From Stentor roeselii (taxonomy: Eukaryota; Ciliophora; Heterotrichea; Heterotrichida; Stentoridae): a DNA stretch of 64,000 nucleotides. Each line of letters begins with the position of its first letter. The stretch's first letter is position 1. The stretch is taken from assembly GCA_006503475.1 (NCBI GenBank), contig RSEH01000031.1, forward strand, positions 1 through 64,000, given 5' to 3'. The notes below the pieces were generated by a model, which saw only the letters and a list, made by a program, of their open reading frames with translations, did no database searches and was not told where the DNA came from. Positions 4,944 to 62,532 of the stretch are shown piece by piece. Position numbers and translations under genes: made by a program.

Positions 4944-7900
4944 ATGAGAGCTCTAGGTTGTTTCTTTGCCTTGGTCTTACATACTTACATATGTGAGAGT
5001 AGATGCATAGATATTAGTGAGAAAATTGTATCAGTGTTCACTTGTATTGAGCTTAAGACATTAGGTTATCCTTCAAAATTCACAGAAAGTTACTTACAAT
5101 TAAGTTCATTAAATCCAATCGACTATACGGCTTATAATTCAGAAATGGAGTTTGTTGCAGTTTTTCATTATGATACCTATTGCTTTACTAGGCCAGGGAA
5201 CTATATTTTAGGCATATTATGCATGGATGATTCAAATTACGATCTTATCAATTTTATTGTTATTGACCCAATAATTACTTATTCAATAGAACCAGTTATT
5301 CCTCAAACGATTTCAGACTTTTTTTCTTTTTCAATATCAGTAGGAAATGACGGTTTATCTGATTTACTTTCTTTTCGGTTCACATTGAGTTTAACTGATT
5401 GCTATAATGGCAATGATTATTCCTACAATTTAATTGGAGAGCGTGAAAAAGTCTCAAATCTTAATTTTTATACTTTCCAGTCCTTAAGGATTAAAAAAAG
5501 TGGCTGCTATAGTTTTACTTTGACTGTGCAAATTCAGATTTCAGGATGGGATATGTATTCAACAGTATCACCAGTGTCAGAATTTTTCATTTCAAGCCAA
5601 TTAAAAGAAATAGAGTTATCCTGTGATCCTGTATTTCAACAATATTATATAAATAAGTGCACACTAACTGCATTAGCTGATAATAAAATTGAGTATTTCG
5701 AAGGGTTCTTCTCTCATTTGATTATTGAATTTAATTCGCCTAATGAAAAAATTGAATGGGCTTCAACGTCGAAGGATGATATGTCTGAAATTGTTTATCT
5801 CACATTTTTTAAAACCTATGGTTTAGTTACCTATAATGCAGCAGTTACCGAGTTATCAACAGGGAAAATTGTTACAACTTCGATTCATAAACATATTCAT
5901 GCCGCTAGTTTATCAATAGATTTTATCAATGTAATTCTTATTTAGGATTCAAGTAGTAGAGCTCCCTTCGATATTAACGGCACAATAAAAACTTACTCAC
6001 AAGAAATTATTGATATTCATATGCTACAAGAGTTTGAACTCGAAATTTTTCTTAAAACACCCTACGCCACAAACTCAGGATTAAACTTTACTGTTGAGGA
6101 TAAGTTTATAATCCAAAGGTGCAATTTAAAAATTGATTCAAATCCATTCACAATAAAAAATATTAAAGTTTTGTCTTCAGGATTATTTTATTTTAATTTT
6201 AATGCCAAATCTTTGAATCTTCCTGAGACCCAGACAAACTACTTTAAAGCGATAAACTATATAAATAAAGTCTCCATTTTTCATGAATCAGTAGTTAGTA
6301 ACTATAGATTCGTTGAACTTTCTTTAGATATAATTGGAGATGACTTGAACCATTATTTAAGTCCTATAACAATAAATATTAAAGAAACGAGCAATCTTGG
6401 AATTGGAGGAGATTTGGATACATATATAGTCAATACTAATACCTCTAAAATATTTATATACTTTTTGGGATCTGGAGTTGGTACAATCATTTGTAATATC
6501 AATGAATTTTCAGAAGAACTGCTTTTTAATGTTCAAGCGAGCAAATTGATGTTGAGTCTCAACCCAACTGTAAAATTTAAATAGCCAATTGATACTCAGC
6601 CATTCACCGCGTGTGTAAAAATTTCAGATATCAGTGATTCAGTATTAGTCTCTATTACTTTTCATGTTACTTTAAGTTTAATTCTAATTGAGAATAACTC
6701 AGGAAATTTAACGGGCGGTTTCTGGGAGAAAGATATTAATGATAATTTTTGCTTTGAAAATTTAAAGATTTATGCATCTGGCTCCTTTAAAATACAAGCT
6801 TCATCAACTGGAAATTTGACTAATACTGAATCAGAAATTTTTACTATCATTAATAAAATACAATATGCTTTGATTGAACTAAACGAGAGTGCTATAATTG
6901 TATATAAAAATTTTAAAATTTATGTTAAATTAATTGGCGAGGATGATAATATATTTAGAGGCGATTGCAATATTCAATTGAATCAACCAGCTGGGATAGT
7001 TTGGTATGAAAAAGAAAAAAATTGCTTAGGCCAAGGCATACTTAGTTTTGAAGGATATTTTACACAAGAAAATTGTTTTACAATTCAAATCAATACTTTT
7101 TATTATTTAAACACAATCACCTTATTGGAAAAAGATGTTTGCTCCTCAAAAGCAATATTGGAATTTTCTCTTGATAGAAATGTAAGCCATAATCAGGTAA
7201 GCTCAATCGGGGATTCCTTTAAATTAATTGCAAGAATAAAAGATTATGATGGATTTTTGTTAAAGAATGCGAATGCAAGTATTTCCATCGATTTGATTGG
7301 TTCAATTAATCAATATTATCCAGGTGTTGATATGTTTTTTTATGAGAACTTTTTAATTCATGTCTATGAAGGTTTAGGCATATCATTTGAAATTCATTTA
7401 CCTAGGGCCGGATATTATACTATTAAAGGATTAGGAGATTCTACAAGTTATTATGAATTAAGACTTTATGTCAATAACTATGTTACAGATATACTCGTGT
7501 TTTTGAATCCTGCGAACTTTTCAATATATACCCCAGTCGAATTGAGTGTAAAAGTATTAGGAGCAGATGGAAATCAACTAGCCGATTCTTACAATTTCGT
7601 TGTTTATGATATGTATGGACTTATCATAAAGAAAATAATAACAGATGGATACTTCAGAACAATAATAAATACAAAAGATGCTTTAATTTATGATTTAAAT
7701 GTAGTTTGTCACAACTTAGCAAAGTCATTTCAATTCGAAGTTCATCCTTTATACACAAACCTTTCTTTTACAAATATAGTAATTTTTATTTAGCCTTTAT
7801 TAAGTTCAGATATTTTCGGAATAAATGGAGGAGCGTATGACAAATTCAAAGGACTTAGATGTGAGTATGAAGTGTATTTGCTATTGGAGTCACTTGATAA

Positions 7901-10900
7901 CAATAATTCTGGCTTATATATTTTTGATTTTCAGAAAAATCATTCGATATTTGGAGGGTCTATTTTCTTTGTACCTTGCACATTTGAAAGTTTCAGTTAT
8001 TTCAGAATTTTATCATCAGGAACCTTTAAAATAACTGCACAATCAAATAAATTGAACACAGAAACAATCATTCCTTATGCATCAGATATCTTTAGAATAT
8101 CAAATAAGATTTTATCAATTAATCTTAGCAGAGAGTACATAAGAGTAAGCATCGCACAAATGATTGAACTAAAAGTTCAAATAATAGGTGAAGATAACCA
8201 AAAATATCTTCAAGACTCTGAAATTCAAATAAGGAACTACTCTGAACATATTTTAAATTGCTATTATACAAAAGGTATGAGTTCCTGTTTTTATACACCT
8301 TTAAATGAAGGAGTAACTTTTTTAACAGCGACAGCAGGTGGTAAATCTTCATCAACATCACTCATTGTGATAAAGTTTGATCTTATTCAAACAAATTTAA
8401 TTCTTGTAATTTTTACTTAGCCTGAAAATAACTCAATTTCTTTAAATGCAAGTTTCCATGTTAAAGACACACTAAACGAAACAAGAGATTTAAATGAAAT
8501 TCTAGATTACTGTTATATTTTTTTGGAAATTAATGAGAATATTAATAGTTCTGGATTTTCAATTAATGGAACACTTACAAAAAAATTAGAAAATTCGAAA
8601 GTCACTTTTGATGAAAATTATATACTCTCCTCTGGTCTATTCAGTCTAAGATTTTCAAGTAACTGCAGTTCCCTTATAAATGAATTTGTTACTCCATTAT
8701 TTTCAATAAGAAACTCTATCAAAAATATTGATATCAAATTAAATAATTCAGAAATCACAGTATATAAGAGCTTTTATTTAGAAATCAGGATAAATGGATC
8801 TGATGATAAATTTTACCTACATGAATGCATCCTTTTTATAAAAGATCAGGATGATATTACTTGGGCCACAGAATCGATCAGTAATGGACTGGGCTTTGCC
8901 TATTTTTATCTTACAGAAACAAAAGAATATAGTTTGGTAACATCTTGTGGTGGAATTAAATCAAATATAATAAAAGTAAGACCATCTCCACTTTCGTTCA
9001 AAATCACAGTTCTTAATCAAGAAGGTGACGTTTCGATTATCACAGCTTCTAACAAGATTTTGTTTGCTGATATTAAAGTTATTGATTCTCAAGAGTTGAT
9101 TGAATCCAAAAATTATAATAATGGGAGCTATCCTTTTACTTTATCATTATTGAATAATTCAAATCAATGTTCAGGACTTACTTTCGAAGTTAATGATTAT
9201 GTGTATGATTTTCAAAATTATTCAGGATACACCGAAACTGGGCAAACAAGACTAAACTTAAAAATACTATCATCTGGAAATTTTACTATCGAAGTATCAA
9301 ATTCGTTCCTTCCTATTATAAGTAATAATTTTACAATTTCATCAATAAACTACATCAAAAATTTCACTATAAATATAACTGAGACAACGGTATTTATGTC
9401 TAACTATATGAAAATAGATTTGAAAGGAGATGACAATCACGCTTTCAAAGAAAATTCAAAATTAACCATAACTGACTTTTCTGATTATAACAATAAATAT
9501 CAGTGCATGAATTTCGAAGGAGAGTGCATTGTTCCAAACCTGACTTTAACTTCACTTGGCCAAACAAGGTTTAATTTGGATTCCTTCAATTTCAATTCAA
9601 GCTTCTCAATTAAAGGTCTTCCAATAAAGATTTCTTCAACTTTCGTTTCAAGCAATGTAAAAATTATTTAGGTTACAAAAAGTAATGAGACTTTTGATAT
9701 CATTTTTAGTCTGAAAGATAATTTATTAGAATCCGATATATGCCATAAAGACCTTGATTCATGCACATATGAATTGAATATTTTACCTGACTTGAACTTC
9801 ACAAGTTCTGGTCGTAATTTTTCATTTTTTGAATTAAAGATGTTGTACTGTTCAACTTACATTTTTTCAAAAATAAAAATTTTATCATTGGGAACATTTC
9901 AGCTGATAATATCTTCCTCATGCTTTTTTGAATCTTGGATTAGTCCATATTCAATATCAATAATCAATTACCCGAAACATATATTTTTGGATATTAAAAA
10001 TACAATTGTTACAGCTTATTTCGAATTTTCAGTGATAATCACTATTATAGCTGAAGATAATCAAATATATTATAACGATGCATCAGTGGAAATAATCGAT
10101 CAAAATGGAACAATATGGGCAGAAAAAATAATAAGCTACTATTCAAATACCATATATATTGTTTTGAACGACACAAAACCCTTTGAACTGACTGCTAGAT
10201 GTAATGGTGTAATCTTATCAAACACCATATTTATTAATTCAACATCTCCATTATTCTTCTTTGAAATTAAAGATATGAATGAAGTTTCAGTAGACTCATT
10301 AAATTCTACAAGTAATTATTACGCTAAAATTAAAGTGATCAATTCAGCTGGTGAAATCGAATCTAAAAATTATAGAGGAAACGGATTTTATCCTTTTTCA
10401 TTAACTTTGATACCTTTAAGTGATAGTTGTTCTGGCATTTCAGCTACTTTTAATGGTTTTAGGTCAGATTTCGGAATATATAATAGCACAACTTTTAGAG
10501 GTGAAGCAACAATAGAACTAAAAATTTTATCATCTGGAGATTTTTCACTATCTCTAGAAAGCCTATCAGAATTATCAATACCCAAAAAATCCTTGTTTTT
10601 AAAGTCCAATAATAAACTGAAATATTTTACGACTAATAATATTTCAATGACAACAATTTATTTACCTACTAATGTAACTTTGATGCTATATGGAGATGAT
10701 AGCAAGCCTTTACTTAAAAACTTAAAAATCGAGTTGATAAATAGTTTGGATCCTTTAGATAATTATAGTTGTGAGAACGTGCATGGAGAATGCAAAGTAA
10801 TTGGACTAGTCCTGACTAAACTTGGAATTACTAGATATAATTTTATTTCTATCTATTTGAACGACTTCTTCACTATTGAAGGAATGCCTATTAATCTATT

Positions 10901-37491: not shown

Positions 37492-39459
37492 ATGAATAAT
37501 GACGGTGATATCTCAGGCAAAACGATCAGAGGACTTCAAGTGCAAAAGCCAATCGGCCAAGGGAAATTTTCAATAGTCTACAAAGCAGTAAACCAAGCCG
37601 ACAACTCTTTAGTAGCCCTGAAGATGATCCGAGTAACCCAAACATAGATTTTCGACATGATGGACCCAAAACAGCGGGAAAAGTGTTTAAAAGAAGTCCG
37701 TCTTCTAGAGTCTCTAGACCATCCAAACATAATAAAATACCTCGACTCATTCATAGAGTCCAACCAATTATTCATCGCAATTGAATGGGCAGAAAAGGGC
37801 GATCTGAAAAAGCTAATCAAAAAGTGCCAAAGCGACGAAACAACCATCGACGAAAAGCGAATCTGGGAATATTTATACCAAATCGCCTCAGCCCTCAAGC
37901 ACATGCAAGACAGAAGAATCATGCATCGCGATCTTAAGCCAGCGAACATCTTCCTTGTCGCTGACGGGTCTTTAAAACTTGGAGACTTGGGACTTGGCCG
38001 TTTTATGTCGAGTCAAACAATTGAGGCCTTTTCTAGAGTCGGGACTCCACTTTACATGTCTCCTGAAGTCTTGAAAGGCAGCGGGTATGACTGGAAGTCA
38101 GACATCTGGAGTCTCGGATGCATTGTTTATGAGTTGGCCTGTCTTCGCTCGCCTTTCAAACGAGATGATGAAAAGATGAGTCTTTACGACCTGTTCCAAA
38201 CCATCAGCAAAGGCGAGTACCCTCCACTTCCAAGTCGTTACAGTGAAGAACTGAAACAAGTAGTTTCTTTGATGATCCAGATACTTCCTCAGAATCGTCT
38301 TTCAACTGAGCAGATTGTTGAGCTTTGTGAAATCCAACTGAAAGCGAATGTAAAGAAACATCGGGTGGATCCTTTTTTAGTCATGGATGATATTGCTGAG
38401 AAGTTGAAACTTCTGAAATATGAAAAGTTTCTGAAAGATACGAATAGGAAGCCTCTTAGCAAGGTTTACTTCGCTTTGGAGTCTGATAGGACTGAACAGC
38501 TTCGATGTTTTTGTGACTTGTGCAACTGGATCATGAGTCTCAGGAACCCTTCTCAGAATCCGGTTTATCTTGGAGTTAGAACTGACCCAGACCGCATTGT
38601 CACCACTGTACTCAACAGTATCAAGAATTATGGAGTTAAAGTCCCTGAGTTCGTCACTAGTGAAGCACTTAAGAACGGCTTCGGAGAAGCCGTTTGTTTT
38701 ATAGTCAATGATCTACTTAATAAGGAACTCATTCGGCAGGATTATAGATTTGAAACTCCTGTTTTGATTGAAAATGGAATTGAATGCTATGGTGACCCTC
38801 CTGAAGGTCTTGAGTTTTATGAAGAAATGCCTTCAGGTGACCCAGAAATGATTTTTTTTAGTCCAGAAGTTGAACAGGTTGTTGAAAATGATGAAGTGTT
38901 TTTTCAGGAATCAGAAAAAACTCTCATCGACCCTTCAGACTGGCTCCTAGAAGTCAAAAGAGTTGAAAAAAAACTAGTCTTGCAAGATTCTCCTGACCTG
39001 TCCCCTAACACCCTAAAGAAAACCTTTCAAGTCATCAAACAATTCAACCATTCAGAAAATCCAGTCATCCTCAGTTCAAAAGCTTTAAAACTCACTGAAG
39101 ATCTCGAAAAAATCAAATCAAAAGAACAGCTACTTCAAAGAATGTTCAAAGTAGAAACCCTTAAAGCAAAAGAAGTCTTAGAAATCTCAAAAGCACTTCG
39201 AAGTCCTGTCAGGTCCTTCAGCACCGGTTCGAAAGTCCTGGAAAAGTTCAACTTTAAAAGAAACCACGTTGAAAGTTTAAAGACACAACTTGAAGAAATC
39301 GAGAAAAGAATGAAAATATTTGAAAAGACTCCTCATGCAGTGAATCCGGTGCCGAAAATGAAAGAGTCTATTGTGAAGCTGAAGAAAGACCTGCGACAAT
39401 TAGAACTGACAACTGGGATCTTACGTACTTATCATAACTCGTGTTTAGTCCCTAAGTAA
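37492..39459 (+). CDS. NEK6/7-like protein kinase fused to IFT57
   Basis: ATG 37492 and a 15-nt intron at 37633-37647 give 650 aa. Residues about 14-280 are a complete NEK kinase: glycine loop IGQGKFS, Lys in ALKMI, NEK6/7-type IFDMMDPKQREKC, catalytic MHRDLKPAN at about 139-147, DLG, GTPLYMSPE. The frame runs straight on, with no stop or added linker, into residues about 288-650. These align along their length with IFT57/HIPPI: FLVMDDIAEKLKLLKYE, KPLSKVYFAL and GFGEAVCFIVNDLL in the N-terminal CH-like domain, DPSDWLLEVKRVEKKL in the middle, then a coiled coil ending KLKKDLRQLELTTGIL. IFT57 is a peripheral IFT-B subunit and NEKs often regulate cilia, so this would place a kinase in the IFT train (inference). 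Kinesin starts 19 bp downstream on the same strand. A Met at about 293 could allow a separate IFT57 product. Confidence 0.88.
37633..37647 (+). other. 15-nt intron in the NEK-IFT57 gene
   Basis: GTAACCCAAACATAG, phase 0, after codon 47, with in-frame TAG. Removal joins ALKMIR to IFDMMD, restoring the NEK N-lobe. A is at position 10. Confidence 0.93.
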
Positions 39460-39478: not shown

Positions 39479-41481
39479 ATGTCGCGCAATGAAAATATTC
39501 ATGTTTCGCTGAGATTCAGGCCTTTGAATCTTCGAGAAATCGATGAAAATGAAAGCAATGTCTGGCAGGTCAATAAAAACTCTGTCATCTTGAAACAAGA
39601 GTGGGCTCAGTACTTTCAGGACTCAAAAAAACTCAACGGCCCGCCGAAGGCTTACAATTATAGTAAAGGTAAACAGATTATTGCTTCACTTCTAAAGACT
39701 CTAACTTACTGCTTTATGAGACTGTCGCGAAAAGAGTTGTCAGGGCTTCCTTGGATGGGTATAATGGAACTATTTTTGCTTATGGACAAACTGGCAGCGG
39801 GAAAACTTATACCATGATGGGAAGTGAAGGAGCTGACCACGAACCCACTCCAAGATTTTCAAGAAAAGAAAGAAGGTCAGTATCTCCATTCCGTGCCTTA
39901 AAAGGTTTCAAAGACCAGCCGAGTCCACGTCACACAAAGCTCGAATTACCAAAAGATAAAGGTATAATAATCTACGCATTAGAAGATTTATTCGAGACAG
40001 TAAACGTAAGATCTGACAAAAACTACTACTTGATGGTCTCTTACCTGGAGATCTACAACGAGCAAGTCTACGACCTTCTCTGCGAAGGTACCAGTTTTAA
40101 AAACGAGGCCCTTTCTGTAAACGAGGACCCTCAGCGAGGTTTTTACGTGAAAGGTCTAACAGAGCACGTTGTAAACTCAATCTCCGAAGTCCTCTCCTTC
40201 ATCGAGAAAGGAGAAGCAAACCGTCGTTACGCAGTGACTTCAATGAACCACAACAGTTCTCGAAGCCACACGATTTTCCGTCTGAACGTCACAAGTGTGC
40301 GAGTACTTGACTCCCAAGAAGAAGACTCAAGCATCACAACTGACTCAGTTTTAAACTTCGTGGACTTGGCAGGTTCCGAACGAGTAAGCAACTTGCAAGA
40401 CACGCCTCTTCCTCGTCATCGAATGAAAAGTTCTAACAATATTGAGACTCTGCTGACAGAAGGCAAGCATATCAACACGAGTTTATTTTACTTGTGCCAG
40501 GTGATTAATCGCTTGAGTGAGAAGAACACTTCGAAGAACGACATGCATATTCCTTACCGAAATTCAAATCTTACGAAAATTTTGAGATCGTCGCTGGGAG
40601 GGAACTCGCTTACTTGCATTATTTGCACCGCGACTCCGACACTTGCACAGTTTGAAATGACTCTCAGCACTTTGAGGTTCGGAGGCACTGCTCGCACTAT
40701 CACTAACAGGGTGGAAGCAAATATTAGAAATAATAAAAACGCTGAGATTCTACAGGCTTATCAAAGGGACATCGATGTGATCAGGGCCCAGATACTCCAG
40801 GCGCAGGAAGATGGGAAGGTTAAAGCTGAGGAATACGCAAATCTTCAGAAGGAACTTCAGGATCGCATCTTGAAACTCACTCAAATGCTGCTTAATAAGA
40901 ATTTGAGAGAAAAAAGAGAAGAAATTGATGAAAATGTGTTCAGTCATGTCGCTGGATTACTTATTAATGATGAAAGACTTGTCAAGTATCAGGAAAAAGA
41001 AAGGGTTGAAGATAGAAATTTGAAATTTGACTCTAGGGCTCAACTTGCTTTGGAAAGGATGAAGGCTATGAATCAACAGTGTGTGGAAAAAGATGCAATT
41101 ATTCATGGATTAAGGGAATCCAAACAGTTTCTTATTGATTCAAAGGTAAATTTAATGAATGAACTTAAAAAAAGCATCGAGTTAACCAAACAAATCAATG
41201 AAAAAAGCTCGAAATATCGAGAAAAACTAGAAAAGGAAAAAGAAAAACAGAACTTTTTAAAGAGAAAACTTGGAATTTTAGAAAAACAGGAAGAAGTTGA
41301 AGGGTTTTCTCTACAGGACATTGAATCTCTTGAAAAATTTTACCTTCAAGCGATAGACAAGGTGAAAATGGCTCAGATTAAGCTGCACTTTCAACATGTT
41401 GAAGAAATTAGCGCTGTTTCAGTCCAAAGTAACGAAAAGATGTGGGAGCATCTAGGAATAGAGAATGTTAGTAATAATTGA
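39479..41481 (+). CDS. N-terminal kinesin motor with coiled-coil tail
   Basis: Start ATG 39479; removing a 14-nt intron (39663-39676) gives 662 aa. The motor spans about residues 5-400: NIHVSLRFRPLN at the first strand, P-loop GQTGSGKT at about 98, SSRSH at about 256, DLAGSE at about 291, and HINTSLFYLCQVI then NSNLTKILRSSLGGNS. The N-terminal motor and start resemble kinesin-7/CENP-E-type proteins, but the subfamily is not certain. A basic insertion of about 40 residues (SRKERRSVSPFRALKG within it) separates TMMG from the usual GII segment near loop L5/L6. Residues about 410-650 are coiled coil. Plus-end transport is expected from the N-motor layout. It follows NEK-IFT57 by 19 bp and could share its expression. 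Confidence 0.9.
39663..39676 (+). other. 14-nt intron in the kinesin gene
   Basis: GTAAAGGTAAACAG, phase 1. Flanking frames differ by 3n+2, so 14 nt is required. Splicing gives AYNYNYCFTSKDSNLLLYE, which fits the F-x-F-D-x-V-F ... VYE segment of kinesins in spacing. A is six bases from the 3' end. Confidence 0.82.
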
Positions 41482-41569
41482 GTAAGTGTAAGCTCTAACA
41501 ATCAACCCTATCTTCACTAAACCCTTATCTCCTCAAATATTCCTAAAATTTCTCAACCCTTTCCTTAAA

Positions 41570-42789
41570 ATGTCTGAATTCCCCGAATTAAAATCCTATC
41601 AAAAGCGAATCACAACAAGTTCCTACAAACTTCCTCCAATCCTCTCCTTCCAAAGCTACCAAGACCAAAAAACCTGCGAGTCAAGACTTCAAACCTTCCG
41701 CTTCGAGCGAGGCAACATGAAAAAAAGACAAATCCCGAAAAAGCTCTTCAGTAAAAGTTTAGTCCTCGACCAGCATTTCCAGTTCCACATAATCGACGAA
41801 GAGCTGAAGATATTTTTCGAGAAGTTAAAAACTTTGAAGTCTAAGCTCACGCTTGTAAAGTTAATTAGAAATCCTACGCCGATCTTTTTAAAACAATTTC
41901 TGAGCAGAATAAACAGATTTTTAATTCGAAACTTGAAGAGACTTTAGCCTTGTCTGAAGTTATTTATGGGATTATTCTTTCGAAGTTTGAACAAGATTTG
42001 CAAGAAGCTGGAATCGCTGCTTATCCTTATTTGCATAGAAATCATGTTGTTAGAGATGAGGTTGATACCCTGGGCTTGAACTGCTCGTACCTCGCTTTGG
42101 CTATCAATGCTTTTAAAGGAGCTATTGCGGCTTATCGAACTTTGGCAAAGAAAAAAGAGGCAAAGCCTCTGGAGTACTTTGAACTGAATGAACTTTTCAG
42201 TTATCTTGCTCAAGCTCGACTTAATATCAGTGAGTTACTCGATGAGATGACATTTAATGAGAAGTTCATCAATGAAAAATATAAAATGTCAGAAAACACT
42301 CTTAACCTTCACTCAGTCGCTGAAATTTTAAATGTTCCTCCAGAAGTCATTGAAAAATTGAAGAAAAACTCAGTAAATGACTATAAAGAAATTAAAGACT
42401 TAACACCTAAAGCCTCCAGTGAAGTTATTGAAGGAATTTTCAATACAAGGAAATATCTCAGTTCTTTAGAAAGCTCTGCATCTCATGCGAAATCAAGTAT
42501 TTATCTAAGAATAATGAGCCACTACAGCAAGACCACATCTCAAGACCATCATTACGCCTCAGAAGGTTTTTCTAAAACAGATCGTCCAGAGCGTTCTTTA
42601 TCTTCTCTAAACGACCCGAAGCTTTACAGCAACATTTCAAACGTTTACGGCTCAAACCCAAGTCTCAAGCTTTTATCGTCAGAAAGACTTCCAAGACCGA
42701 CAAACAAAGTCAGGTACTTCCCAGACCTCGGTTTAAAAAAGGCAGTGAAATTAGGAGAAATCGTGACAAAGAGCATTAATAATTATTAA
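41570..42789 (+). CDS. Protein of unknown function, helical, 401 aa
   Basis: ATG 41570; excising a 14-nt intron at 41855-41868 joins two frames into 401 aa, crossing from KTLKSKLTL to KSYADLFKTISEQ. Without splicing the first frame would run on 26 codons and stop at TAG 41945-41947. Residues about 70-270 are mainly helical and E/K/L-rich; residues about 285-370 are Ser-rich and probably disordered (SSLESSASHAKSS, RPERSLSSLNDPK). No domain is recognised. The gene converges with the DHHC gene (16 bp between stops) and lies 88 bp after kinesin on the same strand. A C-rich, G-poor leader (41500-41565) precedes it. Confidence 0.75.
41855..41868 (+). other. 14-nt intron in the 401-aa protein gene
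   Basis: GTAAAGTTAATTAG, phase 0, after codon 95. The frames on both sides (starts 41570 and 41950) differ by 3n+2. After removal the downstream frame is open from 41869. A is six bases from the 3' end. Confidence 0.9.
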
Positions 42790-42805
42790 CATGAGAAACT
42801 AGCTA

Positions 42806-44389
42806 TTACTCAATTTGCGTATTCAACTTTTCCATGATATCAAAATAACTTGCATCTAAAGTTGAATTCTTCAGTTTTTCTTCAGTGTTGCGAAGACTTG
42901 GATGTGAATTGCAGCACATGTCTTGAAAGTTCCCGAAACATGTCCGATGGCGATTATCAAAAGAAATCGTTGAAATCGAGTCATTTTTCGCTTCAGTTGA
43001 AGTTTTACTGAACCTTTCATTTGTAGTTCTGTTTGTTGCGAAGTTCTTGAAATGCACTGAAAGTAGCATAGTAAGAGGAATAGCGAATATAAAAGCGATT
43101 CCAGTAAGACAAGCTGAAAGCACCTTGTCAACAATCAACGGGACTTCAACATAGTCAACTGGGTGATGATCAACGAAAGAGTAAATATTAATCGCGATGG
43201 TTCCCATCAATGACAACCAGACACAATTGATGAACAAGAAAAAAATTCCTAAATTTCTTGCCCCGATGCAATTATTCACCCAAGGACAGTGATGGTCGAA
43301 CTTTTCCACACACTTATCGCAGGACTGACAGTGTCTGGACCTGGCAGGTCTATAAATTTGACAGTCCGGGCAGACCAGGTACGTTTCATACTGTTCGTAA
43401 AGTTTCAACAACTCATTCATTCCTTCCTTGTTCACCAGGTACCCTGGATTTTTGTTGAAAAGAAGAAGAAAAACAAAGTCAGTCAAAAATATGATGAACG
43501 CGTAAGGATAGACGTAGTAGTCACCTGATGATAGGCGTAAAGCTAGATTCAAAGCTGTACCTAAACAGAAGAATATTAGAAAACTCGCGTAGGATAAACG
43601 ACTTGCTTGGGGAGGTCGTAGTGGAGGCTTTAAAGCACATTCGTCGAACCATCTGATTTCTTTTAACAAGGGAATAAGAGGTTTTTTATCTAGTCTTATT
43701 GCGATGTCGAGAGCGGTTTCTGACTTGTTGTCCTATTTTTAAATTACAGTCAACTTCCGGTCAGCACCCTTTAGAAGAAGGTTCCGGATAATCCGAGTGT
43801 TTCCTGCTAAAGTCGCTAAATGTAAAGGGGTATGACCGTCTTCATCCTTTATGTTCACGTCCATTTTCCAGCTTAGTAAAATTGAAGCTGCTGTCTCACA
43901 GCCCATGTATGAAGCCCAATGCAAGGGAAGACTGCGCTTTTTGTCTAAGACTTCATGATTTTGACCTATTGACTTTAAATAGACCAGGCATTGTGCCTGG
44001 TCACCTTGAGCTGCAACGTGCATCAGACTTAGTCCTTGAAGGTTTCTTGAATTCAGGTCTGAACCGATTTCTATTAGAATTTTTAAGACTTCCTAAATAA
44101 ATGTCACCAGATGGCCACGAAATGAAGCAAAGTGAGCTGCTAAAAAACCTTCTTCGCTTGATATGTTTGCCCAGGCTTTTAACTTTTCAGAGGATTTGTA
44201 AAACTTTTTGGAGTACTCTACCATGAACTTGATTACTGATAAATTTCCGTTTAGACTTGCGATGTGGAGAGCTGACATTCCTCTTGAATCTTTGCAGTTG
44301 TGAAGATCTAAGGAGGATGACCTGAGGAGGGAGTAAAGTTCGGAAATGCTTGCTTTATATACTAGGTTGATAAAAAGGGCTTCCGACAT
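42806..44389 (-). CDS. Ankyrin-repeat DHHC palmitoyltransferase (ZDHHC13/17-like)
   Basis: Two 15-nt introns join three coding pieces into 517 aa. Residues 1-255 are ankyrin repeats (GMSALHIASLNGNLSVIKFM, DGHTPLHLATLAGNTRIIRN); splicing at 44093-44107 restores a repeat (GHLEVLKILIEIGSDLN). TM1 and TM2 lie at about 275-320. The Cys-rich domain follows (CPDCQIYRPARSRHC), with the catalytic DHHC at 355-358 in DHHCPWVNNCIG, then TM3 and TM4 at about 370-440. The TTxE-like motif of the family may correspond to NRTTNERF after TM4. Family members S-acylate proteins at Golgi or surface membranes, and the ankyrin part recruits substrates. Several N-myristoyl/Cys-rich N-termini encoded nearby (MGCC, MGCSC) are the kind of substrate such enzymes modify, but no direct link is shown. 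Confidence 0.92.
43733..43747 (-). other. 15-nt intron 2 of the ankyrin-DHHC gene
   Basis: GTAATTTAAAAATAG on the minus strand. Removal joins the ankyrin block RKLT to DNKSETALDIA. A is at position 10. Confidence 0.93.
44093..44107 (-). other. 15-nt intron 1 of the ankyrin-DHHC gene
   Basis: GTGACATTTATTTAG on the minus strand, the only GTGA donor found. Removal gives RGHL-EVLKILIEIG, a normal ankyrin repeat. A is at position 10. Confidence 0.93.
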
Positions 44390-44558
44390 AATTGTTGTAT
44401 TACATAAAATTGAGAAGAGTAATTTTTCCCAAAGCTTAAAACGTTTATAATCAAAAAAGCTTACTAAGTCATACTTTTAGAAGAATTAGCCATTAGAGTA
44501 AATTTTTCACGATCAAGAAATAATAAATGAATTTTGATATTGAATTAAATTTTTTGTA

Positions 44559-45209
44559 TTAACTAAACAAATCCTCACAGGGTAAGTCAGTTTCTTCAAA
44601 AAAATAAATAGTTGGTGAAGGAAAATTTATATTATTTTCCCATATTGGTCCGAGATTAAATTCAATATCAGAGGATTTGTAGCTTTCGTTTTTGTTAATA
44701 AAGTCAAGAGTTTCACTGCTAATTTCAACAGAGTCAAACCAAGACTGCTTTTGTGCTTTATCAGACAGAAGAATTTTCCGTAGTTCAGGAATTTTCAACA
44801 GGCCAATGTTTCCTGAAATCTTCTTCTCTTGGGCTTTGTTTTTGTTAAGTCTTCGCAGATTCCTTCTTAAAGTCGCGTTTATAAAATTTTTCAACTCGTT
44901 TTCAGTGAAACTTGGAAGAAGGTCAGAAAGTTTCGACCATTGAGGTCCGAGTTTTTCAAAATGCGTTAAAACTCCTGCCACATCATTTTGGCTCATTTTT
45001 TTTCTTTCTTTTATCTTCAGGACGTTGAACCAACGATCTCTGCATTGCTTTGCTGAGCGATTTAGACCTGATTTTTCACAGAATTCTGAACAAATAAGAG
45101 TCCATTTCTTTTGGCCAAGGTCTTGAATTAGTCGTTGTAACAACTTGTCTTCCTAATTTTTTATTACTTCAGGATTCCAGAGCTTTGTGATATTTTTGCA
45201 TGGTTTCAT
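44559..45209 (-). CDS. Myb/SANT-domain protein
   Basis: A short first exon (ATG at 45207-45209, 14 codons) joins across a 15-nt intron to the main exon, giving 211 aa. The join creates LWNPEEDKLLQRLIQDLG, the W-x-EED start of a Myb repeat that the main exon alone lacks. The first repeat runs to RSAKQCRDRWFNVL, with Trp residues at the expected spacing. A second, weaker repeat is at about residues 75-115 (QWSKLSDLLPSFTENELKNF). The C-terminal half is acidic and may be an activation region. A DNA-binding transcription factor is likely, though SANT-type chromatin subunits share the fold. About 170 bp separate its stop from the start of the DHHC gene. Confidence 0.82.
45153..45167 (-). other. 15-nt intron in the Myb gene
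   Basis: GTAATAAAAAATTAG on the minus strand. Removal links WNPE to EDKLL, completing the Myb helix 1 signature. A is at position 10. Confidence 0.93.
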
Positions 45210-46009
45210 TTCTTAAGTATATTTTCCATTTTGATTAATGTGTAATGTGAGCTTTCGGTAATAAATATGAATCATTTTTTATTGGCCAACTGAGTCAAAA
45301 TGAAAAATTTGATTCAAAAATGAGAAAAAAATGATTGATAAATAGTTTATTGGTTGTGATGGTTATAATTAGGTGCATTTTTAATGAATTTAATGTTGTT
45401 TTAATGAAGATCGTTCTTTTGTATACTAAAGATAAGAATTTTTGAGTGAATTATTGAATCAAATTATCATACTTTTGAATTATTAAGTGAAGTGATTATT
45501 ATTTATGTTGTATCCAGACCCAGATGAAAATAATTAATTGAGAATAGATATTTATATTTTATATGATAAAAACTTTAAACTCTTCAAGCAATAAAATTTA
45601 ATCCTTGTAAAATTAAATTCAGATATAAACTATCATTAAAATAGTGAAGATACAACTAATAGAATTCTCTAAACCTTACGGGAACTAAGTGAAAAGTACA
45701 TTCAGCTCATTCATATTGAACTAAGTTCCATAACTCGCTTCATAAGATCAGGACTAAGGAATTTCAAGTTTCATGCAATGTACTGTAACTTAAACGGTTC
45801 AGTCTGCTGTTGTTGACTCTGGGATCACTTAAAGAAGTCTGGATAAAAAACTGAGATTATTGAGCCATTTATAATTGTCGTTAAATTTATTACAACTTGA
45901 TCAGGAAATAGAGATGTTATTAAGATACAATTGTCTACAGCCTAAGCTCTCTTCTGCACAATTTGAATTTAATTATTATAAATTCATACTAATAATAATT
46001 AGATTTATT
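45210..46009. other. AT-rich intergenic region
   Basis: About 800 bp. The part next to the Myb gene is G-rich and C-poor on the plus strand, matching the promoter skew of a minus-strand gene. I see no gene. Confidence 0.4.
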
Positions 46010-46246
46010 TGAATATAAATAGAGTTCACTTCTAAAGATTTGAAGGCATTTTCATAAAAAATTTTTAATCAATCAAAACTCAGATCGAAAGGAAACGTTA
46101 AATCAATCACCGCAATAAGAAATGACCGAACCTATTGGTCTCAGGAAACAGGAGACACTTTCACATCCCAGGAGACAGTCAAGAACACAGAAACCTTTTA
46201 CAGAACTTTTATCCACAACGACTACAAAATTTACACGAATTCCTTG
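46010..46246 (+). pseudogene. Relic of a duplicated coiled-coil + PHB-depolymerase gene pair
   Basis: Positions about 46010-46062 match the leader and start of the gene at 46875 (tataaat, gagttcact, aaagatttgaaggc), with the start codon lost. Directly after, about 46075-46246 matches about 48110-48280 inside the depolymerase-like gene (acaggagacactttcacatc, gtcaagaacacagaa, cttttacag). The order and strand are the same as in the intact pair, with the middle deleted. This is an old tandem duplicate that has lost most of its length. Confidence 0.7.
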
Positions 46247-46599
46247 TTAAATTTTAAATTAATTCAACACCTTTGTCTTTTACTGACAAAAAGAAAAATT
46301 TAACTTAAACTTAGAGGAAGTTTAGGAGTCTTCATATCAGATAACAGTATTTTGGTCTAATTATGTTCAGGAAGATTCCAGATAAGTGCCAAAATGTTCC
46401 AAAAATATCTGTGACATCTGGGTAAATAAAGGCGATTATATCCTCAACCAGACACGAGGTCTTAGAAATCTCAAGTAGTTGACATTTAAGTTTTTCACAT
46501 CAATTTTCTATGGTTTGATCCTTAGCAATTTATACCAAATTAGAGAATAACCTGAGCGAAACAGGCTCTCTCGCTGAGTTTTTCTTTAGAATTCTATCT

Positions 46600-46790
46600 A
46601 CGAGGAATGCTACTGGACAAGAAGGTGAAGGTGGAGAGCGAGTTTCAGAAACAGTAGAAGCGCGACGAGCCCGAGCATGACAAAAAGTGCCAAGAACATA
46701 CTAGAATCACCACAGAACACAACATTAAGCCACCTTCAAAGCACCATAACTTTCAACTAGTCCTGGGTTTAGAAGCATCAATCAAGTATC
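46600..46790 (+). pseudogene. Possible decayed coding fragment
   Basis: A less AT-rich stretch reads LLDKKVKVESEFQKQ, a stop, then KRDEPEHDKKCQEHTR in one frame: charged, coiled-coil-like sequence. It may be another part of the relic locus. No parent gene was identified in this window. Confidence 0.25.
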
Positions 46791-46874
46791 TCTAAGAAAG
46801 TACTCTAACTCACTATTTAATTTTGAATTATTATTTATTTTACGCTAAAAGTATGGGGATTTGTATCTTTATAA

Positions 46875-47360
46875 ATGGAGTTCACTAAAGAAGATTTGGA
46901 GGCTATGTTTGTGAAAAAAAGCGATTTTGACTCAGTCAAGACTCAGCTCACTGAAGAGATCAAAACTATCAAAGAAATTTGTGAGGATAGAAATAAAAGA
47001 CACGAAATATTCATCAAACATATCGATGAAGACTTAACTAACTTGAGGATTGAAAACATTGAAACTAGAGCCGAGTTCAGAAGTGAAATGGCATTCCTCA
47101 AGGAAAAAATGGCAATGGTCGAGACTAATATCTCTAATCTCCAGGCCGATGTCTCTAATGTCCAGGCTGATGTAAAAGATTATGGTAAGAACTTAGTGAA
47201 ATTGTGGCATGTTGTAATTGAACATAAAGCAGAGTCTAATGAAGGGTTCAGTAAACTAGGATTTTGGATGAAAATCAATACAGTCGCAATCATGGTGATC
47301 ATCTTAATGATGCTGTTCAGCAAGAGTCCTGAATCTGGGAATCCTAAAAGTTTCTTTTAA
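46875..47360 (+). CDS. Tail-anchored coiled-coil protein, unknown
   Basis: A 161-aa frame from ATG 46875. Residues about 10-120 form a coiled coil with repeated short units (ISNLQADVSNVQADV), and residues about 134-150 are a single membrane helix (NTVAIMVIILMMLF) followed by a short polar tail, so a tail-anchored membrane protein is likely. The layout resembles small helical membrane proteins often called hypothetical in bacteria and protists; no function is known to me. A relic of its start lies at about 46010-46062 next to a relic of the depolymerase gene, which shows that the two genes were duplicated together as a block. Confidence 0.7.
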   Translation: MEFTKEDLEAMFVKKSDFDSVKTQLTEEIKTIKEICEDRNKRHEIFIKHIDEDLTNLRIENIETRAEFRSEMAFLKEKMAMVETNISNLQADVSNVQADVKDYGKNLVKLWHVVIEHKAESNEGFSKLGFWMKINTVAIMVIILMMLFSKSPESGNPKSFF

Positions 47361-47848
47361 TAGATTAGCTTATTCCATTTAGATAACTACTATATCCAAA
47401 ACTGAACATTTCAAATTTTTAAGATCTACCAATTATCTCCGAAATCTTCAAAACTAACCCTGCTATATCAGCATCAAATAATTACGATCTTAGTCATCAG
47501 CCTATCAGAAAGAGGTGGGATTTCCATACGAAAAAAATTTACTTCAAAACCAAAAAGTAGAACAATAAACTTCAACTCAATAGATCCATAATTAGATCTT
47601 TAGTCCTGAACCAAAAAAAAATCATTTTACAAAGTTCAAGAGTTTATAAATATTCATGATTATTGTTTCTAATACATACCTGCCAGATTAAACAAAATTT
47701 AAAGCCTAAATCAAAAATTTATGAAATTCAACCCTTCAAATCTCCAAAATAATCTCATCTAATACCCCTTTCAATCTCTAAAAACTTAACCTCTCCTCTA
47801 AAATCAATTAAACATCCAACAATAAAAAATCCTTCTCAATCCAAATAA
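47361..47848 (+). promoter_or_regulatory. Intergenic region with C-rich leader
   Basis: About 490 bp. The last 120 bp before 47849 are C-rich and G-poor on the plus strand (aacccttcaaatctccaa, taatacccctttcaatctc), like other gene leaders here. No other feature seen. Confidence 0.4.
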
Positions 47849-48835
47849 ATGGTGACGTTGTTATTCTTTCTCCTGCATTCCTCAGTAGTTCTCGAAGTAT
47901 CATGCGCACTAATCACTTCCTACTCAGTAGCAGGACTGGGCAGCGGAGCATCATTTGCCCATCAATTACATACAGCATTCGGTACAACAGTTCAAGCAGC
48001 AGGTTTAGTAGCTCCAAGTCCTTATTTCTGTTCAATGGGTTCCTACGCGCGAGAAGTATCAGCTTGCCGAGTGAACTCTTACCTCTTCAGCCTTCAATCA
48101 TCAATATTTCAGTTCACTTCTCAAGGAACAGATGGAAATGTCGATCCATCCACTTCATTAAGCAACGACCGAGCTTATATAATCTCAGGCACAGGAGACA
48201 CTTTCACATCGCAAGAGACTGTCAAGAACACAGAAGCCTTTTACAGGACTTTTATTCACAATAACTATAAAATTTATACGAATTACTCGATTCCTGCTGG
48301 ACATGCCTGGATCACTGACTCTTATGGAGGACCTTGCTGGAGTTCAGGACCGCCTTTTATTGTTAATTGTGGATTTGATTTGGCTGGAGATATGCTGAAA
48401 CATTTAACGGCATTACAGTTTCCTAGGACTGCTCAGATCTCAGCACATTTGCATAGCTTTGATCAGAGTAAATATGGAGATGTCTGGCAAGCTGGAATGA
48501 GTTCGAGGGGCTTTGTTTATCTTCCTGGGTTCTGCGTTAATAATACTGGGTGTAAAGTTGTGACTGTTTTTCATGGATGTCATCAGAATTATGATCATGT
48601 TGGAGATGTTTTTGTCAAGGAAACTGGGTTTAATGAATGGGCGGAAAGTAATGATTTTATTATTATTTATCCTCAGACTATTGCTACTCAGGAAAATCCA
48701 GCAGGGTGTTGGGATACTTGGGGATATACTGGACCGAATTTCTCTGTTCAGAGTGGACTGCAGATGAAGTTGGTTCATGGAATCAGCCTTAATCCTCCGT
48801 TTTTGAATTGGACAAGTTTGGCAGTAAGTAAGTAG
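47849..48835 (+). CDS. PHB-depolymerase-like esterase homologue, secreted; nucleophile position altered
   Basis: A 328-aa protein with a signal peptide (about residues 1-20, ending near EVSCA). It follows bacterial extracellular poly(3-hydroxybutyrate) depolymerases: SYSVAGLGSGASFAHQLHTA at the nucleophile region, GTGDTFTSQETV where the catalytic Asp lies, AGHAWITDSYGGPC for the His, and near the C-terminus VVTVFHGCHQNYDHVGD, IIIYPQT and NPAGCWDTWGYTG. Bacterial enzymes have G-x-S-x-G in the first block (as in GLSSG or GISSG). Here it reads G-L-G-S-G, so the usual Ser is Gly and only the neighbouring Ser remains; activity is uncertain. The family would act on bacterial storage polyester, sensible for a bacterivore. 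Bacterial origin by transfer is plausible. A relic copy lies at 46075-46246. Confidence 0.85.
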   Translation: MVTLLFFLLHSSVVLEVSCALITSYSVAGLGSGASFAHQLHTAFGTTVQAAGLVAPSPYFCSMGSYAREVSACRVNSYLFSLQSSIFQFTSQGTDGNVDPSTSLSNDRAYIISGTGDTFTSQETVKNTEAFYRTFIHNNYKIYTNYSIPAGHAWITDSYGGPCWSSGPPFIVNCGFDLAGDMLKHLTALQFPRTAQISAHLHSFDQSKYGDVWQAGMSSRGFVYLPGFCVNNTGCKVVTVFHGCHQNYDHVGDVFVKETGFNEWAESNDFIIIYPQTIATQENPAGCWDTWGYTGPNFSVQSGLQMKLVHGISLNPPFLNWTSLAVSK

Positions 48836-49072
48836 TTTTTGAATCATTTATTTCTAGGGTATAAATGAGATTTTTTTAAGTTTATTCATGGGATATTAAT
48901 TAGAATTATTTTAAGGAATATTGAATGGATTAGAGCAGAGGGTTTTTGGATGATTTATATTGATTTCTCTGACTTTCATGAAGAGAAAGTCAATAGTAAA
49001 ATCTATTTTATGTTTCATGAATTTTAATTGAGATGTTCAATCATGCTCACTATTAACAATGCATTAATTTAT

Positions 49073-49633
49073 CTAATCTTCCTTAACAAGGCCATCATTT
49101 TTCAGTAAGTTCAAAGTTTTCATGTGGATCTTCCTCTTATTATAAATCAAACTGAGTTTTTCATATAAACTCTTCAAAGCAGTCTGATACCTGAATTTTC
49201 TTTACAGTTGACTTTCTAGTTTAACACTTTCTTCACTCATGATTTCGTTAAATATTTCCAGTTGTTTTATATCAATTATTCCGCTTAAAAACTCGATATC
49301 TTCAGATGATTTTTTCGATTGGAATGAAAGACTCGGCTCAAATTTTTCTTTTTCTTTTGCTACTTTTTTTTTCTTTACACTTGAAGGCCTGATGCTTCTG
49401 TAAAAGTCGTCGATGTTGTTAAAAGCTTTTACTATTGGAGACTGTTTTTGTCCTCGGCCTAGTTTTTCTCTGTATTTATCAAGTTCGTTATTGAAAGATA
49501 GAGGCTTTTTGTTTTCGATTAAACTCTTGTTTAGTGGCGAAGACCTGTGTCTTAAGTGAAGAGGTTCGTTTTTCCACATTGGACTCAGATTTAAAGAGAG
49601 CTTCATAAAAGTTACATCAGTGTTGTTTTCCAT
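49073..49633 (-). CDS. Unknown 181-aa protein with a spliced last exon
   Basis: ATG at 49631-49633. A 15-nt intron at 49191-49205 (phase 2) links the first 142 codons to a further 39, ending at TAG 49073-49075. The added tail (LYQTALKSLYEKLSLIYNKR) reads as an amphipathic helix, which supports splicing. Without it the frame ends in SQL at 49202. The N-terminal region is basic and Ser-rich (FMKLSLNLSPMWKNEP, VKKKKVAKEKEKFEPSL). I recognise no family. It lies 41 bp from the 3' end of the TTLL gene on the same strand, so it may be transcribed close behind the ciliary trio. Confidence 0.68.
49191..49205 (-). other. 15-nt intron in the 181-aa protein gene
   Basis: GTAAAGAAAATTCAG on the minus strand, phase 2. 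It combines the GTAAAG donor and CAG acceptor seen in 14-nt introns with a 15-nt length. A is at position 10. Confidence 0.75.
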
Positions 49634-49674
49634 ATTTATGAAACCTTAAAAATTTATAAAAACATTCTCTAAAT

Positions 49675-52643
49675 CTATGAAAACATCACAGAAAAGTCCT
49701 TGTAATTAGGAGCAGGCCCTTTGGTGGGATGAGACCCATAAACTTCAAACAAGAACTGATCAGGAATAGAAATCAATTTTCTTTTCTTCTTTTCAAACAT
49801 TTTCTTCTTTTTCAATCTAAAATCGCGAATATTAGGTGAAGGTTGCCGTGGTTGGGGAATATTATTAACAACCTGTGGTCTATCCTCTTGTTCCAAGAGC
49901 ATTCTAGAATTTTCCTCATTAACTTGACTTTCCTGACGTTTTTGTTTTTCCTTTTTTTCTTCCCTGGCACGTTTTTCCCTAACTTTCTTTTCTTCCAGTT
50001 TTTGCATGAGTTCTTCTTTCCTGATCTGTATATCAGCGTTTCTTTTTGCCATTTCTTCTTCTCTTTTCACCTTGTCCAATATTTTCTTTTCCTTTTCTTG
50101 TTCAAGTTTATTTTTAAGCCACTCTTCCATGACTTTTTTCCTTTTTTCTTCAAGTTCTTTTCTTTTCATTTCCTCAACCCTTCTTTCATCTTCTTCTTTT
50201 TTTTTAATTTTCATTCTTTGAACTCTTTTGATTTCTTCAGTTTTTTTGATTTTTTCAAAAATCAGAGCTTTTCTGTTTTCATCGAATTTTTCTTCTTGGA
50301 CTTTAGAATCTTTTTGTTTTTTTAACTCATCAAGTTTCTGTCTTCTTATCTCTTCATATCTTTTATTGACATACTCCTCTGCCCGTTGTCTTTTTTCTTC
50401 ATAGTTCCTATCCTCCTCTTCCCTAAGTCTAAGTTTTTCCTCATATTCTTCTTGTTTTTTCTGTTTATCCCTTTCAATTTTAACTTTTATTTCTTCTCTT
50501 CTAGACTCCACAAATTCCCTGATCGAGTCTTTAGCTGAAGCAAGAAACTTAAGATCATTAAGAGCAGCAGGCATTTTTTGATTCAAGTCTTTAAGACTGA
50601 CAGATTCCGAGTTCATTTTCATGGAACTAGTCCTTTGAATGGATTCAGGAGGATTATCCTGCAAGACCCTTTCCAAGATCATGATTTGCAAGTCCCAGTC
50701 CGCAAGTCCGAACTCAGCTTGAATATGCGACTTGACCTCGTCCTTCACATTGTCCTCTGCAACGTGGCCTAGTTTAAAAAAGCATAAAAGGACCCCGTCA
50801 TTGATGACTTTGTTTCTGACCCAGTTGTGCTCTCGGGTCTCTCCTGGAATATAAACTTTTTTTGTAGGATGAGTCGAAACCATGAACAGGACTTTCAAAG
50901 CTTTTTCTTTGACTAGTTTGGAAGTGTTGGGACTTAAGGTGAAATTTATAAGACTTTCGCTTATTCCGAGCTTTACAACTTCTTTTTTGAACTTCGTGTC
51001 TTGGCAGCCTATTGCAACTGCTTCTAATGTACCTGCTTGAAGGTACTCTGGAACGTTCTCTGATATGCAGAGGTTTAGGATGCTGTTCATGTGGTTGAAT
51101 ACTACGAAGGCTGATGTACCGTTGCTTCCTGCTAGAAGTTGGAAGGCTTGAAGACCTGCGTTTATTTGGTCTTCTGACATGATTTCCCAGTTGTTTAAAC
51201 GACTCATTACTCGAGAGCAGATTGTGGCGAAATCGGAGATGTCTTGAACGATAGTCAATTCAAGTTCTTCTTTAACAGTTTGCAAAATATCCCTTACAAC
51301 CGGTTTACTGCTTTCATTAGGTGGTGGATGAGGAGCATCATCAGGTCGATGTCTACACATAGGTACCTGAGCCAGTTCAGGAAGAGGATAAACACTACTC
51401 GTAAAAGGCTGTCTCTGAGTCTTCGAAGTAGCATCCGGAGAATAAATAGACCCGACTTCACAATAAAGCAGTTCATAGTCATTCTCCTGCCTAGTCCTTG
51501 GGTTCTTCGGAGGTAAATAAACATCAATCATCAAAGCCATCATATCATCAAGCATCTTAGGCAAGAGTCCCTCAATCCACTCATTAGGAATGCCAAGGTA
51601 AGGATTCGTATTGACCTCGATAAGCCAAACACGAAAGTCCTCATCAATAAGAAAATCAAATCCAAAGAACTCAAAAACTTTATTCCTCTTTCCCCGATGC
51701 ATTGTTTTTTTCGCACTTAAAAACGAGTCAATCATCAAGTCTTTGATTCGAGGCAAGATGTGATTCCAGAAGTTGACTTTTAAAGAAGGGAACTCAGAAT
51801 CGAGGTACTCCTGAAAACTTTCAAAGCTTAAAGTGTTTCCTTTTTCATGCACTCCGTAATTTTCTCCGTATTTCTGAAGACAGTTATTGGTTAAATGAAT
51901 ATAGTTATCAGTTGCCTGAGTGTCGTATTCACTGCTGGAAGTCCTGAGGTATCCATGTTTATAATAAAAAAGTTCATGCTTCGCAGTGCCAAGAGCCCAG
52001 ACACGAATATCGAATTTTCTTCCTTTAAACAGCAAAGGACGTTCAATGTACTTCTGAATAAGCCAGACTGAATGCATCGGTTTATCTTTTAAGATATTCT
52101 TGATTTCTTTCATATTCCAGCAGACATCAATGCCCTTGCCCTGATTTAAAGCTGCAGGTTTTATAAGCCACATGTTTTTTTCACAGTGCTTTGCCGGGAG
52201 TCTTTCCTTATTACAGAATCCATTTTGTATCTCATTAAACCTGATATGGAACTGTCGATACTCAATATCTTCCACTTGCGCCGTGATAATAAAAGACGTC
52301 GCGATTGTATCATGAACTTGATAATTCGCCATCACTGCACCGTCGTTGTTTTGATAGAAATTCCGAAGAGACCGAATAAGGCCCGGCTTGGTGGTGATTT
52401 CGCGATTGTTCTCTAAATGATTGTGGATCATCACGCCGAAGCCTTTGCTGAAAAGCTCTTCCATTTGGTTGTAAGCCTGATTAACTTTACTCGGGATGGA
52501 AAGACAACTGGACGCCAGATGAACTGCGCTTTGAACTCCGAAGACTCGTGCTCGGAAGCCTCGATCCAGTTGCCGCGCTGGTCTAGAATCGGTTTGATTA
52601 GCAGCCGGCTGTTGTTTCCGGGGTGGATCACGTATTTGTACAT
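49675..52643 (-). CDS. Tubulin tyrosine ligase-like (TTLL) enzyme with arm-like and charged coiled-coil tail
   Basis: A first exon of 51 codons (ATG at 52641-52643, starting MYKYVIHPGNNSRLL) joins across a 14-nt intron to the main exon, giving 984 aa. The join completes the N-terminal TTLL block (FIWRPVVFPSRAYNQMEELF). The ATP-grasp core at about 110-370 shows KPAALNQGKGIDV, YIERPLLFKGRKFDIRVW, HLTNNCLQKYGENYG and FFGFDFLIDEDFRVWLIEVNTNPYLG, with the metal-binding E-x-N intact. Residues about 430-650 look like armadillo-type helices and about 660-920 are a very charged coiled coil. TTLLs add glutamate or glycine chains, or tyrosine, to tubulin tails; which applies here is not clear. DNAAF5 lies 114 bp upstream and the carboxypeptidase beyond it. 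Confidence 0.92.
52477..52490 (-). other. 14-nt intron in the TTLL gene
   Basis: GTAAAGTTAATCAG on the minus strand, phase 0, after codon 51. The two frames differ by 3n+2. Splicing yields PSRAYNQMEEL and joins two halves of a conserved TTLL segment. A is six bases from the 3' end. Confidence 0.9.
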
Positions 52644-52757
52644 TTTTAAATGTAAGAATTAGAATGGTTGAATTATGGATTTTTGGTTAGATGGGTTTTC
52701 AGTTATGAAGGGGTTTAAGGAGTTTTTGGGGTTTAGGGATTTGGAAGATTTAGGTAG

Positions 52758-55034: not shown

Positions 55035-55054
55035 GTTAGAAATTAATACATGTG

Positions 55055-57346: not shown

Positions 57347-57389
57347 TATAAAACAACTGAACCACTCTTCATGACTCAAGTTCTAATAA

Positions 57390-60246: not shown

Positions 60247-60256
60247 TTATAACTAA

Positions 60257-62514: not shown

Positions 62515-62532
62515 AACATTATTTTATTACTG

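Follow-up and report, generated by a model that had tools for sequence, protein, structure and literature searches.

The introns of heterotrich ciliates are confined to a very narrow range of lengths. In the Stentor coeruleus set, the whole collection (8806/8806) is made up of two lengths, 15 nt (8173 introns) and 16 nt (633 introns), and the branch adenosine (A) is located at position 10 of the former and position 11 of the latter, which corresponds to a 5-nt tail (PMC9505925). For heterotrichs, about 95% of introns are given as 15 bp and the remainder as 16 (PMC11441545), and those of Blepharisma stoltei are mostly of 15 and 16 nt (PMC9942806). Mikrocytid introns measure 16-17 nt (PMC10245619), and a paper of 2025 still cites the 15 nt of Stentor among the shortest introns (PMC12316389); all these values are taken from the portions of the papers that were accessible to us. 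Here we describe three candidate introns of 14 nt in Stentor roeselii, which lie in a kinesin gene, in a gene referred to as g42 and in a gene for a TTL-family ligase (TTLL), all within positions 1 to 64,000 of contig RSEH01000031.1 (assembly GCA_006503475.1), the stretch of 64,000 nt that we call the window. They would be one base below the shortest spliceosomal introns that we found reported. The minimum of 15-16 nt that the original prediction, made from the letters of the window, had assumed for heterotrichs agrees with the accessible literature, 15 nt being the lowest value found (PMC9505925, PMC11441545, PMC12316389, PMC10245619). No report of a 14-nt intron was found in a search that covered subscription papers thinly and included the accessible parts of PMC9942856, PMC10946202 and PMC10449743; a match to the text '14 nt' in one paper was rejected, as it referred to a telomere motif.

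We propose that the three segments are probably 14-nt GT-AG spliceosomal introns, this being the best single explanation of both the frame breaks and the pattern that the segments share. All three were located exactly where they had been predicted (Table 1). At each site the flanking frames differ by 3n+2, and removal of the 14 nt restores an open coding frame and yields a complete gene from ATG to stop. The segments have the GT...AG ends of U2-type introns and, as candidate branch, an A at both position 9 and position 10. If they are retained, the frame is shifted (phases 1, 0, 0). With 14 nt in the given sequence, they stand outside the 15/16-nt class of heterotrichs. The shared pattern, GTAAAGNTAANNAG, is found three times in the window, each time at one of the frame breaks, where shuffles expect 0.05, although this enrichment is partly circular since the pattern was drawn from the same three sites. 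The looser pattern GTAA....A...AG is present in five further 14-mers of the window; those at 32426, 61610 and 27668(-) were never called in the model runs with listed introns, and the one at 4179(+) was rejected, its adjoining frames being short. The segment GTAAAGTAATTCAG (27578-27591, +), which comes near the 14-nt pattern, was also rejected: it sits within an open reading frame and its removal is unnecessary, so donor and length alone are no proof of splicing. The 14-nt intron is favoured because, when the penalty is strict, only three internal breaks are called in roughly 52 kb of coding sequence, all with the same length and pattern, and also because no pattern-bearing 14-mer arose among 700 simulated breaks. 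From sequence, frame logic and the shared pattern we infer the splicing of the segments, the choice of branch and their origin; the interpretation is weaker for TTLL and leaves the branch at either of two positions.

Table 1. Candidate 14-nt introns, the genes that contain them (lengths after removal of the 14 nt) and the 15-nt reference introns of the window.
Feature	Positions	Strand	Remarks
14-nt candidate intron GTAAAGGTAAACAG	39663..39676	+	kinesin gene, phase 1; called by unbiased model
14-nt candidate intron GTAAAGTTAATTAG	41855..41868	+	gene g42, phase 0
14-nt candidate intron GTAAAGTTAATCAG	52477..52490	-	TTLL gene, phase 0; called by final model, absent from first pass
Kinesin gene, two exons, 662 aa	39479..41481	+	translation; PF00225 positions 1-327 of 327
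Gene g42, 401 aa, no Pfam family	41570..42789	+	translation
TTL-family ligase gene (TTLL), 984 aa	49675..52643	-	PF03133, 175.1 bits, residues 69-370
15-nt intron	5931..5945	+	phase 0, in-frame TAG
15-nt intron	6570..6584	+	phase 0, in-frame TAG
15-nt intron	7779..7793	+	phase 0, in-frame TAG
15-nt intron	8406..8420	+	phase 0, in-frame TAG
15-nt intron	9657..9671	+	phase 0, in-frame TAG
15-nt intron GTAACCCAAACATAG, kinase gene	37633..37647	+	phase 0, in-frame TAG
15-nt intron	43733..43747	-	phase 0
15-nt intron	44093..44107	-	phase 0
15-nt intron	45153..45167	-	phase 0
15-nt intron GTAAAGAAAATTCAG	49191..49205	-	phase 2; credible; same donor as 14-nt introns

The same sites were recovered by a gene model with no preference for intron motif or length. 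Its coding part is a small codon-phase Markov chain that was retrained iteratively on its own calls; an intron may be any segment from GT to AG that measures 10-40 nt, and no length costs more than another. Twelve introns were called in the final run: eight measure 15 nt, three measure 14 nt and coincide exactly with the predicted sites, and one, of 11 nt at 27923(-), adjoins a stop codon and is regarded as noise. In the first pass, for which training was limited to long open frames, the model had called two of the 14-nt sites (kinesin and g42), four introns of 15 nt and, at 27923(-), the 14-nt segment GTTGTATGAAGAAG. When only 15- and 16-nt introns were admitted, the three sites turned into one-base frameshifts; at a penalty of -14 no other frameshift was called, and extra introns were placed at 1104, 27980 and 37633. 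Allowing 14 nt beside 15 and 16, with no frameshifts, improved the score by 40.1 nats (-81571.0 vs -81611.1), a gain to which two additional weak calls of 14 nt, at 1389 and 27923, contribute. The weak calls of 14 nt at 1389(+) and 46138(+) were set aside, as were those of 15 nt at 1104(-), 16 nt at 27980(-), 17 nt at 52508(-) and 22 nt at 41471(+), and the longer ones of 32 nt at 55101(-), 33 nt at 46701(-) and 38 nt at 3261(-). As a control, 700 one-base deletions were simulated at random within intact coding stretches, after which the model was rerun. The deletions were noticed in 542 of the 700 cases, 402 being patched by an intron of any length and 140 by a frameshift, and were missed in 158. 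A 14-nt GT-AG patch was used in 57/700, which shows that a patch of this length is in itself nothing unusual; none of the 57 combined GTAA with an A at position 9, and none carried the shared pattern.

The reference set consists of ten 15-nt introns, the eight of the final run together with those at 37633 and 49191(-). Nine of the ten are in phase 0 and hold an in-frame stop; in the tenth, at 49191(-), the intron's own TAA stops the unspliced frame. This tenth intron was called solely at an intron penalty of -1, and for the 115 nt that follow it the joined frame gives a score of +4.4 nats, versus -28.3 and -30.6 for the other two frames; no Pfam family was found in exon 1 of its gene. The intron at 37633 is outside the best path of the free model at the default penalty and was called when only 15/16 nt were admitted, and also at laxer penalties; its join gives a protein kinase that is continuous across the intron. 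It is worth recording that this gene (37492-39459, +) encodes, behind the protein kinase domain and in the same frame, a full-length IFT57 domain (PF10498, 144 bits, residues 243-591 of the open reading frame starting at 37657), possibly as a fusion. A giant gene of 4360 aa (4944-18101, +) has five 15-nt introns in its first 4.7 kb, followed by an intronless stretch of 8.4 kb. The donor GTAAAG, with G at position 6, is present in 3/3 of the 14-nt and 1/10 of the 15-nt introns (Fisher 0.014). The original prediction had set this donor apart from those of the 15-nt class; since it is also found in the 15-nt intron 49191-49205(-), it is enriched in the 14-nt introns but not exclusive to them. The introns end in CAG in two of the 14-nt segments and in 49191(-), and in TAG in the other nine of 15 nt. 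If retained, introns of either length would expose the mRNA to early termination, which may reflect selection through mRNA decay. The 14-nt introns make up 3/13 of the introns in the window, a fraction that is no measured share because 15-nt introns of unusual sequence without an in-frame stop would escape the model.

The idea that the join restores conserved family sequence is borne out for kinesin. Its motor domain starts in exon 1, which is therefore needed, and the 14-nt join is the highest of six readings scored with Pfam: it reaches 317.5, the 8-nt join 313.4, a lost base without intron 308.7, and joins of 29 and 35 nt 302.0 and 299.8, respectively. With the full-length protein the score is 315.4, versus 303.3 for another reading without an intron. 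The joined protein aligns with CENP-E without a gap across the 14-nt join. When all 1788 open kinesin joins were scored by BLOSUM with two references, the 14-nt join ranked 91st because longer non-GT-AG deletions take out a loop absent from CENP-E; when GT-AG joins alone are compared, it came first (340, next 333), the best lost-base reading without intron having 335. The Pfam scores, rather than this BLOSUM scoring, are relied on. In g42, which has no match in Pfam at E 0.001, the 14-nt segment is the one open GT-AG join of 3n+2 nt in the range of 5-40 nt, and the 14-nt model beats the next best by 11.2 nats. The frame offset equals -1, and the frames could also be joined without any intron by -1 ribosomal frameshifting, for which g42 offers an in-frame slippery TTTAAAA 32 nt past the start of the segment. 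However, a usable slippery heptamer is found in this one gene of the three: the sole one in the kinesin overlap lies 136 nt downstream, and that of TTLL lies 160 nt upstream, ahead of the ATG. Retaining the bases also loses 9 to 12 bits of the kinesin match, and the shared pattern would be left unexplained; we consider frameshifting the least probable of the explanations weighed here. Germline elements (IES) occur in ciliates, and the segments could be such elements that were not removed, or the genes could be dead copies. Apart from the segments, though, each of the three genes keeps an open frame up to its end, and within the 14-mers, to which this count is limited, there is no pair of TA 3n+2 apart; both possibilities appear very slight.

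Several results weigh against 14-nt introns, and a first group of them concerns ordinary 15-nt introns that have lost one base in assembly, by random or motif-specific error. Such introns would give identical proteins, so protein conservation cannot separate them from introns of 14 nt. The coding score hardly distinguishes an intron from a one-base frameshift: if introns are left free, the kinesin intron gives way to a frameshift at a penalty of -10, and all three do at -8.4, so it is the shared pattern and not the score that separates the two. When only 15/16-nt introns are admitted, laxer penalties bring out further weak frameshifts, at 27917 at -10, also at 3524 and 55109 at -8.4, and at several more places at -7. 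In a profile of nine 15-nt introns the 14-mers score 2.49, 6.08 and 9.43, and the 10th percentile of 15-nt introns with one base deleted is 7.37. The profile of all ten gives 5.74, 10.72 and 9.31, and the shortened 15-nt introns then have a minimum of 4.70, a 10th percentile of 5.06 and a median of 9.92. All three 14-mers thus resemble 15-nt introns shortened by one base, and the profile, which no longer separates them, was dropped as support. In addition, a 15-nt intron with the identical donor exists (GTAAAGAAAATTCAG), and the heterotrich introns of the accessible literature are of 15-16 nt. A count of 3/13 at 14 nt is unexpected beside 0/8806 in S. coeruleus, as far as that source was available to us (PMC9505925), unless this species is different or the annotation allowed for two lengths only. 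On the other side, no further frameshift appears at -14 in the 52,051 bases called coding by the model, which include 334 homopolymer runs of 5 and 137 of 6, even though most of the simulated deletions were noticed. The 95% upper rate of random loss is ~7.4e-5 per base, giving 0.015 expected losses in 13 introns, and the probability of three or more such losses is ~5e-7, or ~2e-6 when 27923 is counted as an error. This arithmetic bounds random error, not error tied to a motif, and the earlier judgement that an assembly error is unlikely holds for the former without extending to the latter. A lost base would also need to have affected three of the four GTAAAG introns, but at most one of the other nine. 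We regard it as unlikely, although it deserves to be taken seriously.

A second group of objections concerns the place at which the frames are joined. The 14-nt segments had been described as the sole GT-AG joins, which is correct for g42, but eight such joins are open in kinesin and 13 in TTLL. The frames might be joined there by a different intron, for instance of 29 nt, or TTLL might start downstream without an intron. By coding score the 29-nt joins are a mere 0.1 nats (kinesin) and 0.7 nats (TTLL) worse than the 14-nt ones, and the nested 8-nt join trails in kinesin by just 4.1 Pfam bits. In TTLL, where the first pass of the model placed no intron, the downstream frame stays open for 196 nt further upstream, so that an intron is not strictly required and an intronless gene is possible. 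The 14-nt join falls outside the Pfam match of this gene, and nine of its 13 joins fit the TTL N-terminus better (24 to 29 vs 20). Exon 1 (52491-52643) has a weak similarity to the TTL N-terminus, equalled by 53/2000 shuffles, and a coding score of 18.9 nats, compared with 12.8 for the next frame and 16.7 for the opposite strand. Searched alone against PDB, this exon found no TTL, and the TTLL N-terminus found no relative in PDB and NCBIfam. Conserved family sequence is thus restored weakly at best by this join, and TTLL is a weaker case than was stated in the original prediction, as homology does not fix the join. Against a different intron, nevertheless, it can be noted that the final model never called one of 29 nt, that the 29-nt join costs 15.5 Pfam bits in kinesin, and that g42 is without any second GT-AG join. 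GTAA together with an A six bases from the end occurs in one of the 19 other open joins, the 8-nt join nested in the kinesin site, and in TTLL it is found in the 14-nt join only. When TTLL is read upstream without an intron, its alignment to TTL falls to -17 and -13, compared with 20 for the 14-nt join. A different intron, or an intronless TTLL, therefore appears improbable to us.

Should the three segments be 14-nt introns, they would be of the U2 type (GU-AG), one base shorter than the standard 15-nt introns, with a GUAAAG donor and UAA at positions 8-10, and they would be spliced as the 15-nt class is. Two forms of lariat can be envisaged. The branch could be A9, with a 9-nt loop and the same 5-nt tail that published introns of 15 and 16 nt have, or it could be A10, with a 10-nt loop and a tail cut to 4 nt; a branch at position 10 and a 5-nt tail cannot coexist in 14 nt. 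Since an A stands at both positions in 3/3 segments, the two forms fit alike. It had been proposed that an A is kept six bases from the 3' end and that the missing base precedes it; the first part is seen in all three segments, but the second does not follow, A10 being present as well. As a nearby 15-nt intron has the same donor and CAG end, the 14-nt introns may be shortened forms of that type. It can be hypothesised that the genome contains a regular 14-nt class, rich in GUAAAG donors, with a UAA branch motif and either a 9-nt loop or a 4-nt tail, which would form a sizeable share of the introns; we consider this quite possible and advance it tentatively. If true, this class would comprise the shortest spliceosomal introns known and would have been missed by annotation restricted to lengths of 15 and 16 nt. 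The minimum intron length for the spliceosome is an open structural question, on which a 14-nt class would bear by lowering the limit and tightening the bound on the size of the lariat or on the distance from the branch to the 3' splice site.

The window has a GC content of 33.5% and is densely packed with genes. Long frames end in TAA, TAG and TGA; as all three are used as stops, the standard genetic code fits. Cilium genes are present, and at 49675-63891 the TTLL gene is one of a set of neighbouring cilium/tubulin-related genes that also includes a DNAAF5-like gene, a zinc carboxypeptidase with a cytosolic carboxypeptidase N-terminal domain, and a member of the tubulin family. A scan of the window with Rfam found two tRNAs and, at gathering scores, no snRNA. 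The two tRNA genes are similar to one another (22486-22557 and 22991-23062, both on the minus strand) and have an extra C in the anticodon arm relative to the Rfam model; ARAGORN assigned TCG (Arg) to one and left the other unnamed. Scans of IMG/VR and GTDB with kinesin, TTLL and part of a BEACH protein confirmed no relative.

The three candidates resemble the introns of S. coeruleus in their GT-AG ends, their AT-richness and an A near the 3' end, and position 10 is an A in 10/10 of the 15-nt introns of the window, as it is in 8005 introns (90.9%) of the S. coeruleus set. They differ from that set in their length, which is absent there, and in their donor, GUAAAG, when compared with the commonest published intron, GUAAUUUUUAUAUAG; both comparisons refer to the accessible part of the source (PMC9505925). 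In Blepharisma stoltei, for which no 14-nt class was seen in the main text as available to us, UGA encodes Trp, whereas several genes of the window, including kinesin, end in TGA (PMC9942806). The 16/17-nt introns of Mikrocytos mackini, as described in the accessible part of PMC10245619, likewise combine a very narrow range of lengths with a conserved sequence, but they are two to three bases longer than the candidates described here and belong to an unrelated lineage.

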